Shown here: positions 13,099 through 21,036 of the stretch, one piece after another
Layout: each line of letters starts with the position of its first letter
Position numbering within the stretch: position 1 is the stretch's first letter
Virus record (IMG/VR): IMGVR_UViG_3300031857_001437
Span: 1 to 23,430 of that record
Length of the DNA stretch: 23,430 nucleotides
Reading direction: 5' to 3' (one strand)
Source: a virus
Made by a program: the position numbers and the translations under genes
The notes under the pieces: model-generated
What the model was told of the DNA's origin: nothing
The model's database searches: none
Seen by the model: only the letters and a program-made list of their open reading frames with translations

Positions 13099-14310
13099 AT
13101 GCCTATCGCAACCGGTATTGCCAAGCAAGTCCGATACAAGACGGAAGTTACCTACAACACAGCGCCTGGCGCCGCCAGCGCGCAGCTGCTGCGCCGGGTG
13201 GAGTCCACAATTGGCGTTGAGAAAGACACGTACCAGTCTGCGGAACTTCGGAGCGACTATCAGATCTCCGACTTCCGCCACGGCACCCGCCGCACGATGG
13301 GCAGCATCAAGGGCGAGCTGTCGCCGCGGACCTATTCGGATTTCATCGGTGCCGCCTTGCGCCGAGACTTTGCTGCAGTCACCGCGATTGCTGGCGCATC
13401 AATCACCATTGCTGGCGCCGGCCCCTACACCATCACCCGCGCAGCCGGTTCGTTCCTGACCGACGGCATCAAAGCGGGCGATGTGATCCGGCTTTCTGTT
13501 GGCACGTTCAACGCCAACAACCTGCTGAAAAACATCTACGTCGTAAGCCTGACGTCTACGGTCTTGACGGTGATCGTGCCCAACGGATCGACGCTGACCG
13601 CCGAGGGTCCGATTGCATCGTCGACCGTGACCGTGTTTGGCAAGAAGACGTTTACGCCGGCCACAGGCCACACCGATAAATCGTTTGCCATTGAGCACTG
13701 GTTCTCCGATGCCACGCTCTCCGAGCTCTACACCGGTTGCAAGATTTCCACGCTGGACCTGGCGCTGCCGCCCACCGGCATGGCCACCATTGATGTCGGT
13801 CTGATGGGGTCTGGCGGAATCACCACGGCGTCATCGGCCTACTACACCAGCCCGACCGCAGCCACCACCACCGGCATCGCTGCCGCCGTCAACGGCGTGC
13901 TGTACATCGGCGGCTCTGCGGTAGCCACCTGTACCGGGCTTTCGCTCAAGGTGGATGGTGGATACAGCGGCGACCCCGTGGTGGGCTCCAATGTCATGCC
14001 GTCTATCTTTGCTGGCCGCGTCAACGTAACCGGCCAGTTCTCGGCATATTTTGATTCGGCCACCTACCGTGATGCGTTCCTGAACGAGTCCGAGCTCGCC
14101 ATCAGCGTAGTGCTGACGTCTGACAACACGGCCGCCTCGGATTTCGTGGCGATCACGGTTCCGCGCATCAAACTGGGATCGGCTCAGCGCTCGGATGGAG
14201 AAAAGGGGCTAATGCTGACGTCTGACTTCCAGGCGCTGTTCAATGGAACGGGCGGCACCGGCACATCGTCTGAGCAGACCACGCTTTCAATTCAAGATTC
14301 CGCAGCCTGA
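13099..14310 (+). CDS. Major tail tube protein
   Basis: A 403-residue subunit of the tail tube. After the start come AKQVRYKTEVTYNTAP and ELRSDYQISDFRHGTRRTMGSIKGELSP, a pattern shared by phage tail tube proteins of this type. An internal domain (about residues 95-180) with repeated Thr/Val strands follows, then FAIEHWFSDATLSELYTGCKI and a C-terminal Ig-like-looking domain. The good ribosome site (AGGAGAG) and the isolation from the preceding gene by 76 bases fit high expression. Place in the order between tail terminator and assembly chaperone agrees. Confidence 0.82.
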   Translation: MPIATGIAKQVRYKTEVTYNTAPGAASAQLLRRVESTIGVEKDTYQSAELRSDYQISDFRHGTRRTMGSIKGELSPRTYSDFIGAALRRDFAAVTAIAGASITIAGAGPYTITRAAGSFLTDGIKAGDVIRLSVGTFNANNLLKNIYVVSLTSTVLTVIVPNGSTLTAEGPIASSTVTVFGKKTFTPATGHTDKSFAIEHWFSDATLSELYTGCKISTLDLALPPTGMATIDVGLMGSGGITTASSAYYTSPTAATTTGIAAAVNGVLYIGGSAVATCTGLSLKVDGGYSGDPVVGSNVMPSIFAGRVNVTGQFSAYFDSATYRDAFLNESELAISVVLTSDNTAASDFVAITVPRIKLGSAQRSDGEKGLMLTSDFQALFNGTGGTGTSSEQTTLSIQDSAA

Positions 14311-14319
14311 GGATTCTGC

Positions 14320-14718
14320 ATGTTTGATATTTCGTCGATTGTCGAGAATGACACCGGGGTGGTTGAGCTTCGCCATCCCGAGTCGAACGCTCTCTTGGGC
14401 GCGTCCATCACCGTTGCCGGTCTTGGCCACCCTAAGCGCAAGCGCATTGAGTTTGCCCGTGCCCGCGCTCTGCGGGCTCGGGTGGCGAAGCGTGGGCGCT
14501 TGGAGCTGACCGACCCGGTTGAGGATGAGGAGTACGAGATCGAGCGGCTGGCAGCCTGCACGCTTTCATGGGAAGGCATCAACCGTGACGGCAAGGCGAT
14601 TCCCTGCACGCCGGAGGAATCGGCCGCCTTGTATGAGAGCGCTGCTTGGATTCGCCGCCAGGTGTCCGCGTTTCTGGATGACGCGGTAAATTTTATCGCC
14701 AGCTCGGCGAAAGACTAG
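14320..14718 (+). CDS. Tail assembly chaperone, short form (gpG-like)
   Basis: A 132-residue protein made when no frameshift occurs. It has a beta-rich front (VVELRHPESNALLGASITVAG), a basic helix (AKRGRLELTDPVEDEEYEIERLAACTLSW) and a C-terminal helical part ending SAFLDDAVNFIASSAKD. In lambda-like tails such a protein coats the tape measure during tube assembly. The ribosome site GAGGA (14309-14313) precedes ATG 14320. Near its end lies a complete -1 frameshift signal, so a fraction of ribosomes should make a longer form. Confidence 0.85.
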   Translation: MFDISSIVENDTGVVELRHPESNALLGASITVAGLGHPKRKRIEFARARALRARVAKRGRLELTDPVEDEEYEIERLAACTLSWEGINRDGKAIPCTPEESAALYESAAWIRRQVSAFLDDAVNFIASSAKD

Positions 14719-14763
14719 CGCGAAGGGTCGGCCGTGATGTCCGCCTTAACCGGCGCCGAGCTG
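14688..14763 (+). promoter_or_regulatory. Programmed -1 frameshift signal
   Basis: The heptamer A-AAT-TTT (14688-14694) is in the zero frame as X-XXY-YYZ. Five bases later begins CAGCTCGGCG (14700-14709), whose exact complement CGCCGAGCTG is at 14754-14763: a 10-bp perfect stem closing a 44-base loop. The zero frame ends at TAG 14716-14718 inside the loop, while the -1 frame is open to 15050. Confidence 0.85.
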
Positions 14764-15050
14764 ATGGCTCGACGCTGCGCGAGCACTTCATGGCAGCCGA
14801 GCGTGCCGGGGTTGAAACCGGCGAGCTTGACGAGGAGCCGTTGCCAGCGGGGTGTGAACTGCTGCTTGAGTTGTATTGGCAGCTTCGGCGTGCAGCTGGC
14901 TCAGGTGGATTCGGTCACGCAGCGATTGCGTTTTCAGAGATTGCTGCCTGGCAGTCTCTGACGGGCGTTGAGCTGACGTCTGCCGAGCTTGATTTGTTGA
15001 CCGACATGGATGCCGCCGCCTTGGCGGCATTTGCGGAGAGCGTGGAATGA
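14694..15050 (+). CDS. Tail assembly chaperone, -1 frameshift extension (T-part)
   Basis: The -1 frame from the slip site adds about 118 residues (starting YRQLGERLARRVGRD after the shared NF) to make a gpGT-like fusion of about 243 residues. The added part is helical with a Pro/Glu linker (GELDEEPLPAGC), ELYWQLRRAAGSGGF and EIAAWQSLTGVELTSAELDLL, as in T-domains that bind tail tube protein. An internal ATG at 14790 exists but lacks a ribosome site, so an independent gene is unlikely. The stop overlaps the tape measure start as ATGA. Confidence 0.82.
   Translation, partial: YRQLGERLARRVGRDVRLNRRRADGSTLREHFMAAERAGVETGELDEEPLPAGCELLLELYWQLRRAAGSGGFGHAAIAFSEIAAWQSLTGVELTSAELDLLTDMDAAALAAFAESVE
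15010..15030 (+). other. Hairpin just before the tape measure start
   Basis: ATGCCGCC (15010-15017), loop GCCTT, GGCGGCAT (15023-15030): an 8-bp perfect stem inside the frameshift extension, ending 16 bases before the tape measure ATG. It may tune translation of the downstream gene. Confidence 0.35.
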
Positions 15051-18000
15051 GCACAACCGTCGGCGAGCTGGTCGTTGAGGTCCGCGCAAAAGTGGACCGC
15101 CTTGCCGGTGACATGGACAAGGCAAAGGGGTCTGTCAACCGGTCCATGAATGACATCAAGGGCGCGGCATCGGCCGTGACGGGGTACCTGTCGGCGATTG
15201 GCGTAGGCGCGTTCGCTGGCTACATCAAGTCGGCCATCGATGCGGGCGGCGCGCTGTTTGATCTGTCGAAAAAGACGGGCATCTCGACAAAGGATCTGTC
15301 ATCGCTGGAATACGCTGCAAAGATGTCCGGCACCACGCTTGAGGGCGTGGCGGGTGGCTTGAAGAAGCTCGCCAGCAACATGGTGGCCACTTCGCAGGGC
15401 GCATCGTCTAACGCAGAAGCATTCAAGGCGCTAGGGATCTCCGTAACGGATACCGGCGGCAACCTGCGCAGCACTCAAAGTGTGATGCTCAGCGTGGCTG
15501 ATCGGTTTGCTGGGATGCAGGACGGCGCAGAAAAGAGCGCGCTAGCGGTAAAGCTCTTTGGCAAGTCCGGCACTGATCTGATCCCGCTGCTGAACGAAGG
15601 ATCCAAAGGCATTGAGAAGATGCAGGGCACGGCTTCCGCGCTTGGCCTCACGCTCACGGATGAAGCCGCTGCGGGCATGGAAAGCCTCGGCGATAGCATG
15701 GACACCATCGGCATGGCGGGGCAGGGCATCGCACGTCAGTTTGCGGCAGAGCTGACGCCAGCCATCAGCGCTATTGCGGGCTCTTTTCTCGGCGCTGCCA
15801 CTGAGGGTGGCGCACTGGCGGGGGCTGTGGCTTTGCTTTCAAAGGCCTTCAAGTCTTTGGTGTCGGTTGCGGTCGGCGTTGTTGCGGTTTTTGATGTGCT
15901 GGCGCGCGCCACACTAACAACCTTTTCTATCATCGGCAACGCCATCAAGGGCGACTTTACGCAGGCGCGCAACGACTTCCAATTTCTCACGGAGGACATG
16001 AGCACTATATTCAGCGAAGCGGGCGCCAAAATAAACGCGGTATGGGCATCTCAAGAAGCCGCGCAGAAGCCGGTCACAGAAGGGTTGCGCGAGCATGAAA
16101 CGCAGACCCGCAACGTCACTGCCGCGGTTGGCGAGAACGCGTCCAAACTTCAAGGCGTCATCAAGGCGCTGGACGATGAGCGCGAGATGCTTGGATTGAC
16201 GGCTGAGCAATCCGAAATCTATAAACAACAAACAGCGGCTGGCGTCGCGGCAAACTCTGAGGCAGGCAGGCTTATCGCGGAAAAAGTCACGCAGCTTTTT
16301 GCAGAGCGCCAGGCTGTTGACGAGGCCACCGCTGCAGCAGAGGCGGCTGCAACTGCGTCCAAAGAGCACCAACAGGCAATCGCAGAGCAGACAAACACCC
16401 TGCGCGAACGGGTGGACACTCTGAGCGAGGAGATGGAAGTTGCCGGAATGACAGGCCAGCAGATTGAGGAGCTGGCGCTTGTTCGTTTGCGTGAGCGCGA
16501 GGCGCAACTCGATGCCATCATCGCCTCCTCTGGAATGACAGCGGAGCGCCAGGCGGAAAAGGAAGCGATTGCCGAGCAGATCAGGCTGCAAACTGACCTG
16601 GTGTCGCTGGTTGGAAGGAAAGAAATCGCAGAAGCACAAACCGAGCAGGCTGCCGCCGCGAAAGAAGCGTGGACGGAAACCGCGCGCAGCATTGAAAACG
16701 CTTTAACCGATTCGCTTATGCGCGGCTTCGAAAGCGGCAAGGGCATGGTGCAGTCGCTTAAAGACTACATCGTTAATGCTTTTAAAACGACCGTGGTCAA
16801 GTTTGTCGTGCAGGCCATCATGGGTGGGGTGGGTGGAATGATCCCCGGCATGGCTAGCGCTTCAACTGGCGCAGGCGGCGCAATGGGGACGCTGAGCAAT
16901 TTGGGTTCGTTGTTCAGTGCCGGCAAGTCACTCTTTAGCGGCGGGTTCAGTTCAATGCTCAGCGGCCCAGGCGGCGCGCTGGGTGACAGCCTATCGTCTC
17001 TCCGGTTCGGGCTCGGCGACATCGCCAGCAAGCTTGGCTTTGACAAAATGGCCGCCGGGTTCAACTCCCAAGCGCTTGAGATCAAGAGCTTCGGCGCCAA
17101 CATCATGGACATCGGCGCCAACATGGGCGCCGGATTCCTCGGCAGCTTGGCAGGCAACAAACTCGGACAAGCTATTTTCGGCGAGCGCCAAACCACCGGA
17201 ATCGGCGGAACCATCGGCGGCGTTCTGGGGTCGGCCGGCGGGCCAATTGGCACCATGATCGGCAGCTTCCTCGGCAGCCTAGCGGAGAATGCAATCGGGA
17301 AGATTCTGGGTTTGGGCGATCAGGCCAAGTGGGGAAAGCTGGGTATCACGACCGGCAGCGATGTGCCAACAGACGGGTCTGCGCTTCAAACAATGACGGG
17401 CGCCTCCGGCCTGCAGCTCACCGCTGTTGCCAAACGAACGGACGAAGCGGCCGCGCTTCAGCTGCTGGAAGGCTTTGCAGCGATAGACCAGTCGCTGACC
17501 ACGTTTGCGCGCGCGGCCGGCGTCACCGTGGACTTTTCCAAGAAAGTCCTGGGAAACACAAATCTAAACGTCGAAAATCAAGGCCCGAACAACTCGTTCG
17601 GGGTTGGCGACCGGCTGGACAAGTTCAGCGCGGACAAAATCAAGACATCAGCCGACGACTTTGCGCGCGCGTGGGTGTCGGAAATCGACGATCAACTTTC
17701 AAGCCGCATTAAATCCATCATGGGCGACACCAGCCGGCGCACTGCAGGGCAAATCGTCGAGCTGTTTGGCTTTGCCACGACGATCGACAAGCTGCTCAGC
17801 GTAAACGTGGTCCAGGAGGCGGCCAAAGCGCGCGAGGCGGCCGAGTCGCAATCCCGCAGTCTTGACGTCTACTCCGAGGCGTCAAACAAAGTGCGACAGC
17901 TGTCAGAAGACTTTGACGGCAGCACGCAGTCAATGACCGCGCTGTCAGAAGCGCTAACCGCCCAGAAAGTGATCGCGGCACAAATCGCGCAGGCGTATGA

Positions 18001-18634
18001 GGAACTGGCGGTTGCCATCAATGCGTCATTTTTGAGCGCAATTGATGAAATCCGGCAGTCGCTAATGTCGCCGGAGGAGACGATTTCGGCGAACAAGTCG
18101 CGAATCGACGCGGCTGTTGCAGAGCTTCGCGCAGCCGCCGACCCCGAGACTATCGCCAACCTGTCGGCCGAAATCCAGTCTCTCGTGAAAGCCACGTTTG
18201 GCATGTTGGACAAAGACCAGCAGAAAGTGCAAGGCCAGCAGTTCATTGATTTGCTGACAGAGTCCAACGCAATCGCCGCGGCGCGGCTTGAGGAGAGCAA
18301 AGCGGCGCTTGCGGCAAATGAAGAAGCGCTGAAGAACAGCGTGGACCAAAGCCTGGCGGCATTTGCCGCTAGCGTTGAGTCGCTGGCGTCATCACAGGCA
18401 GCGCAGTCCGCGGAGGCCGCAGACCGGACGGCAATCGCCATCGCGGGGCTAAACGGCTCGGTTCAGGCGGGCACCGCCTCTGTTGTCGGCGCTATCAGCG
18501 GGCTGCGCGAGTCGATTGCATCGGCCGTAAACTCAGCGGCAACGTCGTCGTCATCGGCCATTGCATCGCTGACCAGCAGGTTGGATGCGATTGAGTCGTC
18601 GGCGCGCCTACAGCGGGCAGGGCCGAATGGCTGA
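15047..18634 (+). CDS. Tail tape measure protein
   Basis: A 1195-residue tape measure that sets tail length and leaves with the DNA at infection. The N-terminus (TVGELVVEVRAKVDRLAGDMDKAKGSVNRS) and the following GYIKSAIDAGGALFDLSKKTGISTKDLSSLEYAA to ALAVKLFGKSGTDLIPLL are typical of the family. A hydrophobic stretch lies near residues 258-290 and a Gly/Ser/Met-rich region near 590-770; between and after them are long helical, Gln/Glu/Ala-rich coiled coils, ending SSSSAIASLTSRLDAIESSA. It is by far the longest gene of the window and directly follows the chaperone. The start overlaps the previous stop (ATGA); the end overlaps the next gene by 8 bases. Confidence 0.95.
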   Translation: MSTTVGELVVEVRAKVDRLAGDMDKAKGSVNRSMNDIKGAASAVTGYLSAIGVGAFAGYIKSAIDAGGALFDLSKKTGISTKDLSSLEYAAKMSGTTLEGVAGGLKKLASNMVATSQGASSNAEAFKALGISVTDTGGNLRSTQSVMLSVADRFAGMQDGAEKSALAVKLFGKSGTDLIPLLNEGSKGIEKMQGTASALGLTLTDEAAAGMESLGDSMDTIGMAGQGIARQFAAELTPAISAIAGSFLGAATEGGALAGAVALLSKAFKSLVSVAVGVVAVFDVLARATLTTFSIIGNAIKGDFTQARNDFQFLTEDMSTIFSEAGAKINAVWASQEAAQKPVTEGLREHETQTRNVTAAVGENASKLQGVIKALDDEREMLGLTAEQSEIYKQQTAAGVAANSEAGRLIAEKVTQLFAERQAVDEATAAAEAAATASKEHQQAIAEQTNTLRERVDTLSEEMEVAGMTGQQIEELALVRLREREAQLDAIIASSGMTAERQAEKEAIAEQIRLQTDLVSLVGRKEIAEAQTEQAAAAKEAWTETARSIENALTDSLMRGFESGKGMVQSLKDYIVNAFKTTVVKFVVQAIMGGVGGMIPGMASASTGAGGAMGTLSNLGSLFSAGKSLFSGGFSSMLSGPGGALGDSLSSLRFGLGDIASKLGFDKMAAGFNSQALEIKSFGANIMDIGANMGAGFLGSLAGNKLGQAIFGERQTTGIGGTIGGVLGSAGGPIGTMIGSFLGSLAENAIGKILGLGDQAKWGKLGITTGSDVPTDGSALQTMTGASGLQLTAVAKRTDEAAALQLLEGFAAIDQSLTTFARAAGVTVDFSKKVLGNTNLNVENQGPNNSFGVGDRLDKFSADKIKTSADDFARAWVSEIDDQLSSRIKSIMGDTSRRTAGQIVELFGFATTIDKLLSVNVVQEAAKAREAAESQSRSLDVYSEASNKVRQLSEDFDGSTQSMTALSEALTAQKVIAAQIAQAYEELAVAINASFLSAIDEIRQSLMSPEETISANKSRIDAAVAELRAAADPETIANLSAEIQSLVKATFGMLDKDQQKVQGQQFIDLLTESNAIAAARLEESKAALAANEEALKNSVDQSLAAFAASVESLASSQAAQSAEAADRTAIAIAGLNGSVQAGTASVVGAISGLRESIASAVNSAATSSSSAIASLTSRLDAIESSARLQRAGPNG

Positions 18635-20174
18635 GATTGTTACGATTGATGTGACGGCTCACAACGGCACCACAACCACCACGCTTCGGTTCGCCACGCA
18701 GGCCTATACGACATCCGCAACCGACTCGCCAGCGCATTCGTTTTATGACGGCAGGGTAGCCCAGCCGGGCAACATGCGGCGCACAGCTTTTGATCAGGGC
18801 ACGACCTACGGACTGAGCCAGATCGGGTACGGGGAGGTTGTGCTCGTCAATGTGGACGGCAGGCTGGATCAATACCTGACCTACGGGTTTGCCGGTTTCG
18901 GGATTGTGATCAAGCGCGGCGTGAAATCGCCAAATCAGGCCACGCCGACATGGACAACAGTGCTGTCCGGCGTGATGGATTCGGTCGACTTTTCATGGTC
19001 TGAGGTGTCGATCAAGATCCGCGACAGACAGCAAGAGCTGCTAAATCCGCTGCAGGCGGCGCGCTATGGCGGCACGAACGCGCTGCCGGCCGGGCTTGAT
19101 GGCGTGGCAACCGACCTGCAAGGCAAGTGCAAGCCTATCTTGTTTGGTCGTGCGCGCAATGTTTCGCCGCCATGCGTCAACACCACCCGTCAAATCTATC
19201 AGTTGAGCGATGGGGTGATCCAGTCGGTTGATGCCGTCTATGACCGCGGGACAGCGCTTACCGCTGGGGCGACCTATGCGTCGCAGGCGGACATGGAAAC
19301 CAACGCTCCTGCCGCGAGCCAGTATCGCGCGTGGCTGAACGCCGCCGGCTCATTCATCCGCCTCGGCTCTGCGCCTGCCGGGACGCTGACGGTGGATGCG
19401 TCGCAGGGCGCTGCGGTCAGCAACCGCACGCCTGCGCAGCTGATGTCCCAGGTGCTGCAGAAGGCAGGCATAGCCGCCGGGGACATTTCGTCCGCTGACA
19501 TCACCGCGTTGGATGCCGTTGCGGCGTTCGAGTGTGGCCTGCTGACCGACTTTCAGTCGGAGCAGACCGGGCGGCGCGCAATGGATGCGCTTGCCAATTC
19601 AGCTGGTGCCTTCTGGGGCGTGGATCGGCTTGGAAAGTTTCGGATGAAGCAGCTGGCTGCCCCATCCTCCGGCGACTCGATTGGCACGCTGTCGGCTGTT
19701 GATGTTCTTGCGATCGATCGCGTGCGGTCAGGCGATTCCGGCGGTGGCGTGCCGGCGTGGCAAGTAAAGGTGCTGTATTCAAAAGTTGAAACAGTCCAGA
19801 AAGACCTGGCGGCAACGATCGCGCAAACGTACAAAAACGAACGATCCGAGCAATACCGCAAAACCGTTGCGAATGATTCGGCCATCAAAACTCAGTGGCC
19901 GCGCGCGGTTGAGCTAGAGTTTGAGACTGTCTTGCTTTCGGCGACTAATGCCGCCGCCGAAGCCACCCGGCGGCTGAACCTATACAAGGTGCGGCGTGAC
20001 ACGCTTTCAGTTCGCGCTCGGCTTTCCAATGCGTTGGCGGCATTGATTGATATTGGATCAACCGTTGTTCTGGCGTTGCCACGCTTTGGGATGTCCGCAG
20101 GCAAGCCGTTCATTGTGACCGGCATCCGCACCGATCTGAGAAACAACATTTTCGAGCTGACGCTCTGGGGTTGA
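18627..20174 (+). CDS. Phage tail protein (tail tip/baseplate region)
   Basis: A 515-residue tail protein placed after the tape measure, where distal-tail or hub proteins lie. Recognisable pieces are GEVVLVNVDGRLDQYLTYGF, SIKIRDRQQELLNPLQA, CKPILFGRARNVSPPCVNT, QSVDAVYDRGTALTAGATYAS and FRLGSAPAGTL-like strands, a set common in proteins annotated only as phage tail protein. ATG 18627 is preferred over the in-frame ATG at 18585, because the earlier one would add 14 Arg/Ser-rich residues wholly inside the tape measure gene. No catalytic motif is seen. Confidence 0.72.
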   Translation: MAEIVTIDVTAHNGTTTTTLRFATQAYTTSATDSPAHSFYDGRVAQPGNMRRTAFDQGTTYGLSQIGYGEVVLVNVDGRLDQYLTYGFAGFGIVIKRGVKSPNQATPTWTTVLSGVMDSVDFSWSEVSIKIRDRQQELLNPLQAARYGGTNALPAGLDGVATDLQGKCKPILFGRARNVSPPCVNTTRQIYQLSDGVIQSVDAVYDRGTALTAGATYASQADMETNAPAASQYRAWLNAAGSFIRLGSAPAGTLTVDASQGAAVSNRTPAQLMSQVLQKAGIAAGDISSADITALDAVAAFECGLLTDFQSEQTGRRAMDALANSAGAFWGVDRLGKFRMKQLAAPSSGDSIGTLSAVDVLAIDRVRSGDSGGGVPAWQVKVLYSKVETVQKDLAATIAQTYKNERSEQYRKTVANDSAIKTQWPRAVELEFETVLLSATNAAAEATRRLNLYKVRRDTLSVRARLSNALAALIDIGSTVVLALPRFGMSAGKPFIVTGIRTDLRNNIFELTLWG

Positions 20175-20175
20175 T

Positions 20176-21036
20176 GTGGCGAATATCACGCTTGCATGGC
20201 AAAACCGGACAGACGAGGGGACGCTCAGTAACGGCTCGTGGTTGTCCACGCTGCCACTGACCAACCTGCAGGACCGCACGGTTCAGAAAGTGGCACGATC
20301 CACAAATGCGAACCTAACATCAACGAAGTTTGACATTGACCTTGCAAGCGCCAGATCTATTGGCGTTGTTGCGCTGGTTGTCCACAACGTCAGCGTCGTC
20401 GGCAAAATCAGAATCACAGGTGATGATGCGTCCGACTTCCTGACGCCGGTGTACCAGACTGCGTGGATTGACTGCTGGCCGTCCGGGCAAATTCCTCAGA
20501 GCCTGCTGGAGTGGGAGGAGGACAACTTTTGGCTGGGCACGCTCTCATCCAACGCTCGCGCTGGCTACCAAAGTCCGTTCATCCACTTGCTGCCCACCGC
20601 GCAGGTGCTGCGCTATTGGCGCGTGGAAATTGACGACACCGCAAACAGTGACGGCTATCTGCAGGTTGGTCGGCTTTTCATGTCAGCCGCATGGACACCG
20701 ACGCTGAACTACACGCTAGGAGCGACGCTTGGATACACGGACCAGAGTCCCGTGGATACGTCGTTGTCGGGCGCGGAGTTCTTTGATGTTCGCAGCCGTG
20801 CGCGAGAGTTTGATTTGGCGCTTGACGGCCTGACCGACTCCGAAGCCTATGACTACGCGCTGCAGATTCAGCGCTTGGCCGGCACCACCGGCGAGGTGTT
20901 GGTAATTCCCGACTCGGCGGACACCACGCGGGTTGCCATCCGAAGCTACCTCGGGCGCCTGGTCGGTCTGTCGCCGGTGGAGCAAGTGCAGCAAAACCGA
21001 CACCGCGTCGGGTTCAGACTGAGGGAGCTTCTCTAA
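20176..21036 (+). CDS. Phage tail tip protein
   Basis: A 286-residue protein with GTG start one base after the previous stop. Its N-terminal half (SLPLTNLQDRTVQKVARST, FDIDLASARSIGVVALVVHNVS, KIRITGDD) resembles discoidin-like beta sandwiches. The C-terminal half is a second domain (SRAREFDLALDGLTDSEAYDYALQIQ, EQVQQNRHRVGFRLRELL). It probably belongs to the tail tip with the preceding gene. The stop overlaps the next start as TAATG. Confidence 0.6.
   Translation: MANITLAWQNRTDEGTLSNGSWLSTLPLTNLQDRTVQKVARSTNANLTSTKFDIDLASARSIGVVALVVHNVSVVGKIRITGDDASDFLTPVYQTAWIDCWPSGQIPQSLLEWEEDNFWLGTLSSNARAGYQSPFIHLLPTAQVLRYWRVEIDDTANSDGYLQVGRLFMSAAWTPTLNYTLGATLGYTDQSPVDTSLSGAEFFDVRSRAREFDLALDGLTDSEAYDYALQIQRLAGTTGEVLVIPDSADTTRVAIRSYLGRLVGLSPVEQVQQNRHRVGFRLRELL

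Follow-up and report, generated by a model that had tools for sequence, protein, structure and literature searches.

Two overlapping reading frames before the tape measure gene

Between the tail tube and tape measure genes of this virus lie two overlapping open reading frames (ORFs), which is the arrangement that marks lambda-type G/GT genes. This raises the question of whether the second ORF is a gene in its own right or whether, as in phage lambda, it is reached by ribosomes that slip back one base near the end of the first. Such tail-chaperone frameshifts are of a well-known kind (Xu, Hendrix and Duda 2004, as far as that work is relayed in PMC5009743). The window, by which we mean the whole 23,430-base record (G+C 61%), otherwise carries an ordinary siphophage cassette of terminase, portal, protease, capsid, connectors, tube, G, T and tape measure. 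Comparison with related loci argues, at a probability of about 0.93, that the window adds a new member to the lambda-like G/GT class, with a -1 frameshift in its tail-chaperone gene. The features involved are as follows.

13099..14310, + strand: tail tube protein, upstream neighbor (Phage_tube_2, E 7.5e-35)
14320..14718, + strand: zero-frame ORF, gpG-like tail assembly chaperone of 132 aa (PHROG 313 "Tail assembly chaperone", E 2e-11)
14682..15050, + strand: -1-frame ORF with a T-like domain (Pfam Phage_TAC_18, PF23812, 42.7 bits)
14688..14694, + strand: slippery heptamer A_AAT_TTT, in frame with ATG 14320; tandem slip AAU to AAA and UUU to UUU
14695..14699, + strand: spacer ATCGC, 5 nt; the family's structure signal starts about +5 after the heptamer
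14700..14709, + strand: 5' arm of a candidate stimulatory stem (perfect 10-bp repeat), matching in position the 5' arm of the relatives' hairpin
14716..14718, + strand: zero-frame stop TAG, end of the short product, 7 codons past the slip codon
14754..14763, + strand: 3' arm of the window's own stem, a pairing not common to relatives
15047..18634, + strand: tape measure protein, downstream neighbor (PHROG tape-measure families; best named phrog_8462, E 1e-34)

A letter-by-letter check upheld every coordinate of an earlier sequence-only reading of this DNA, covering the heptamer, spacer, 10-bp stem, loop, TAG and -1 frame. As that reading had described, the -1 frame stays open through the zero-frame stop, running from 14682 (after TGA 14679-14681) to TGA 15048-15050, directly before the tape measure gene, whose ATG at 15047 overlaps the end of the T ORF. 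The two chaperone ORFs overlap by 37 nt, and the heptamer lies inside this overlap.

Both products belong to recognized families. PHROG 313 was matched by 34/34 aligned G homologues and Phage_TAC_18 by 34/34 homologues of T, and the window's T ORF scores above the Phage_TAC_18 gathering cut-off of 27 bits. Both domains were also predicted to fold with high AlphaFold pLDDT (93 for G, 92 for T, the first helix of T spanning residues 2-18), from input that left out three rows from annotated phage records. PDB structure searches found no solved structure resembling either predicted domain, so that family profiles and gene order carry the case for a chaperone role, and likeness to lambda was assessed through membership in PHROG 313 and Phage_TAC_18.

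Elsewhere in the window, a 145-aa protein encoded at 1841-2278, ahead of the terminase gene, matches Pfam Gp80 (podophage GP4 fiber protein) with E 5.8e-50, while the rest of the genome looks siphophage-like. Directly 3' of the tape measure gene, 18585-20174 and 20176-21036 strongly match PHROG 8917 and PHROG 8610, both families of unknown function; their products are probably distal tail proteins.

The second frame is conserved, coding and has no convincing start

Searching viral contigs directly with G and T did not turn up relatives, whereas the better conserved tube protein did, and so we collected loci with the tube query and read downstream of the tube gene. This gave 104 usable loci including the window, or 84 that were non-redundant at 95% identity. 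Nothing among named phages lies near the window at the DNA level, and no relative with a tube identity above about 76% was found in IMG/VR or among 399 genomes from the order to which one relative belongs. In the Bradyrhizobium phage ppBdUSDA122-1 and similar named-phage homologues, the two ORFs are annotated with no link between them, and in the former (L027, 3983-4432) the chaperone is labelled "branched-chain amino acid ABC transporter", probably in error.

The T ORF lies in the -1 frame in 82 of the 84 non-redundant loci and in the +1 frame in the other 2, and the zero-frame stop falls 7 codons past the slip codon in 67/84. Between that stop and the window's first -1-frame start codon, changes at codon positions 1/2/3 numbered 82/86/191 when read in the -1 frame (32 independent pairs of relatives), the pattern of a coding sequence. 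Given that the frame relation and the slip codon are conserved and that the -1 frame is coding before any start codon, the frameshift is very probably real. The lambda-like -1 shift that had been proposed for this gene is thus supported by its position, its frame relation, the conservation of its slip codon and -1-frame coding upstream of the starts.

Two separate genes, with T started either at its own ATG (14790) or through re-initiation once ribosomes have met the TAG, would be the simplest alternative, and we consider it very unlikely. An in-frame ATG does exist at 14790, the first ATG/GTG/TTG of the T ORF, and an SD-like 4-mer of some kind precedes the first start codon in 17/78 relatives. 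However, ATG 14790 has no Shine-Dalgarno sequence before it, while the G start at ATG 14320 is preceded by an SD-like GAGG. A protein begun at 14790 would also lack 32 residues that are conserved (L8, L18 and DG 24-25) and evolve as coding sequence, among them the predicted first helix of T, and the position of the first start codon varies among relatives (a median of 23 codons after the slip, and at least 25 in 39/78). Together, the -1-frame coding ahead of 14790, the missing Shine-Dalgarno and the lost helix make independent initiation unlikely. Transcriptional slippage might be suspected since the slip site is an A/T run, but it is hardly credible: the runs are merely 3 A and 4 T, shorter than the polymerase-slippage runs known so far, the bases around TTT vary in relatives, and a sister clade carries TTT_CGA with no homopolymer. 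An error in sequencing or assembly, or decay of the gene, has a negligible probability of explaining the overlap; the record is a metagenomic contig, although nothing specific points to an error, and the same frame relation at the same codon recurs in 82/84 non-redundant contigs and in named phages. On this evidence we rejected all three.

A phenylalanine codon is kept while the rest of the slip site varies

The window heptamer fits the X_XXY_YYZ pattern, with both codons re-pairing after a -1 shift. Most of its relatives do not: 54/84 break the pattern (for example, G_CTT_TTT_A), and their preceding codons are mostly poor at re-pairing (CTT, GCT, CGT, CAT and others), yet they retain a T_TTT or T_TTC context, T_TTT usually being followed by A. 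The aligned site reads NNT_TTT in 72/84 non-redundant loci, whereas at other positions of these genes TTT accounts for 28% of Phe codons (141/504) and NNT for 12% of all codons. The 57 bases from the heptamer onward align without gaps in 76 loci, with T4-T6 invariant and T7 present in at least 90%. The slip codon, Phe125, is invariant in G alignments, where it is the sole invariant residue or one of two.

Loci that lack T_TTT usually carry another heptamer, either A_AAT_TTC, G_GGT_TTC or, a few codons away, G_GGA_AAC. Three loci (L039, L078 and L094) are of the last sort, with no T_TTT but a canonical G_GGA_AAC no more than a few codons off, as though another slip site had taken its place.

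Given that 54/84 relatives break X_XXY_YYZ and yet keep T_TTT, the Phe-tRNA is probably the essential slipping tRNA, and slippage of this tRNA on T_TTT is probably the core event in the family. In vitro work on dnaX, in which -1 slippage happens during translocation and mismatches are tolerated at one codon (PMC6787027), is compatible with that role.

The sequence-only reading had held that related phages keeping these genes but losing the heptamer and stem would speak against the frameshift. Half of this came true, in that most relatives lack a canonical heptamer and the window's stem was seen in none of them, but T_TTT at this codon and the relation between the frames persist in them, often along with a different hairpin. 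We therefore interpret the differences as turnover of the signal, not as absence of frameshifting.

Downstream RNA structure in the family and in the window

Downstream structure is probably used in this chaperone family, as judged from folding and covariation. In 60-nt windows beginning 5 nt past the slip site, the mean folding z was -1.59 +/- 0.18 (84 loci), compared with values between -0.15 and -0.39 in control windows 60-180 nt upstream of the site. Pairing in register i+j=47 reached at least 6 bp in 33/78 loci, and register 38 accounted for 10 loci. In register 47, 65 cells were changed on both sides versus 43.9 +/- 4.7 in shuffles, and covariation was 0.233 versus at most 0.154 in slid registers. 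When arms were swapped between sequences, loci with at least 8/10 pairs fell from the 26 observed to 12.6 (maximum 22). Part of this covariation signal could come from relatedness and from conserved Leu-Arg/Ala-Glu codons. Non-canonical slip sites go with stronger hairpins (median z -2.22 vs -0.10, Mann-Whitney p 0.004), which is suggestive of hairpins compensating for weak slip sites; because the comparison holds only 3-4 phylogenetically independent pairs, we do not claim this.

In many relatives the covarying hairpin has the 5' arm position of the window's stem and a nearer 3' arm, the window's 3' arm sitting about 27 nt further downstream than that of the family. The window's own stem is the perfect inverted repeat CAGCTCGGCG, pairing 14700-14709 with 14754-14763 across a 44-nt loop. 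The description of heptamer, spacer and stem as a complete cassette was only partly sustained: all three elements are present and the stem is non-random, but relatives lack its pairing and the RNA is predicted to fold otherwise. A pseudoknot with the GCTCG...CGAGC hairpin (14767-14784) had also been suggested but found no support; the arms are present at 14767-14771 and 14780-14784, but in the predicted fold GGCTCG pairs instead with the 3' arm of the 10-bp stem.

The stem could equally well be incidental, with stimulation coming from an alternative fold (a hairpin at about 14751-14780) or not being needed at all, and we regard the odds of this as even. Equilibrium folding disfavors the stem: it dominates only in RNA truncated at about 14770, its pairing probability drops below 0.015 once the next 10-30 nt are added, and forcing it into the fold costs 5.5 kcal/mol relative to the free minimum (-37.2 vs -42.7). 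The folding z of the whole region is -0.20, and with the 40-60 nt windows that were applied across the family, the window's z is positive (1.27 and 1.36). Its pairing was not shared by relatives, including the closest (L040 and L041), and the weaker downstream structure of canonical-heptamer relatives, described above, points the same way. Against this, a Watson-Crick run of at least 10 bp with its 5' arm starting 3-12 nt after the heptamer arose in just 7/5000 synonymous recodings of the -1 frame (P about 0.001), the 5' arm coincides with that of the family hairpin, and the stem could be favored by local folding in the wake of a moving ribosome or polymerase. The window's version of the downstream structure is thus plausible but unproven.

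A sister clade probably shifts the other way at the same codon

Relatives of Curvibacter phage P26059A and Limnohabitans phage DC31 form a sister clade with T in the +1 frame, and in alignment their slip codon falls on the Phe codon of the -1 family. The 30 non-redundant +1 loci have AAC/AAT_TTT at this place, followed by C in 28/30 and by CGA in 20/30 (the clade's loci L021, L022 and L127-L180 being mostly AAC_TTT_CGA). CGA is rare in the tube genes of this clade, at 9/355 Arg codons, and TTT makes up 38% of Phe codons there. The tube tree requires two changes of direction. One -1 member, L173 (A_AAT_TTT_ACG), groups with +1 members with full SH-aLRT support in a quick tree; L173-L176, with A_AAT_TTT_ACG and a -1 shift, use the same aligned Phe codon as their close relatives L166/L179/L021, with AAC_TTT_CGA and a +1 shift. 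A limited search of open-access papers found no description of a +1 shift in tail chaperones.

These comparisons lead us to favor, by a little over even odds, a model in which the tRNA of one invariant Phe codon slips alone: backward (-1) on U_UUU_A, aided by a hairpin, for the majority of members, and forward (+1) on UUU_C, at a rare CGA codon, in the sister clade, the direction having flipped at a single homologous codon. For the window phage itself, slippage of tRNA-Phe alone (on U_UUU_A, in the P site or during translocation, with the preceding AAU dispensable) is a substantial possibility, if somewhat short of an even chance. It would accord with the poorly re-pairing codons before T_TTT or T_TTC in the 54/84 relatives and with the retention of the same Phe codon, as TTT_C, in the +1 clade. 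However, the A_AAT_TTT of the window and its nearest clade lets both tRNAs re-pair, and the one-codon mismatches that measured -1 sites tolerate (PMC6787027) leave room for a tandem slip in the window.

Proposed mechanism and comparison with known systems

Under the proposed frameshift, most ribosomes would translate 14320-14718 to give the 132-aa gpG-like chaperone. In a minority, a one-base backward slip at A_AAT_TTT (14688-14694) would carry translation beyond the TAG in the -1 frame as far as 15050 and produce a fusion protein of about 243 aa (...DDAVNF-YRQLGERL...). The tRNA-Phe on U_UUU would be the essential slipper, with tRNA-Asn presumably slipping alongside it in the window phage, and mRNA structure from about 5 nt downstream of the slip site would help the shift. 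By analogy with lambda, the short form may coat the tape measure and the long form may recruit tail tube subunits. We infer the shift itself, its rate and the chaperone function.

This locus resembles lambda G/GT in its site before the tape measure gene, its overlapping ORFs, its -1 direction and its short and long products from one start. It differs in that lambda slips at G_GGA_AAG (PMC5009743, PMC7618472), while the window heptamer is A_AAT_TTT and relatives mostly depart from X_XXY_YYZ; moreover, tRNA-Phe takes the place of lambda's tRNA-Lys, and a downstream hairpin is present in much of the window's family. Escherichia coli dnaX, where A_AAA_AAG acts with a stem-loop and the -1 slip is reported to occur during translocation (PMC6787027), similarly combines a heptamer with a stem a few bases downstream, which in the window is a candidate stem; dnaX further carries an SD-like stimulator upstream and reaches 70-80% shifting, whereas the predicted role in the window needs only a minority product. 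In the PRFect analysis of SEA-PHAGES genomes, most annotated frameshift overlaps, mainly in tail chaperones, had no X_XXY_YYZ motif (PMC10885494). Compared with those annotated motifs, our series follows one homologous codon across 84 non-redundant loci, with background rates and covariation. The +1 clade, mostly TTT_CGN with a rare Arg codon, recalls influenza A PA-X, which shifts +1 at UCC_UUU_CGU; the study that describes it predicted a class of +1 sites with UUU_C (PMC3498833). Unlike PA-X, the clade consists of phages of bacteria and uses a codon where homologues, the window among them, shift -1.

The probable frameshift in the window is of a sort that gene callers miss. More interesting than this single site is the turnover of signals across the family around an invariant Phe codon, together with the apparent flip in direction. 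The chaperone family forms a natural series in which the slip sequence, the stimulator and even the direction of the shift vary at one codon, and with this series one can test whether slippage of one tRNA, aided by a hairpin, is able to substitute for tandem slippage, and how a -1 site turns into a +1 site.
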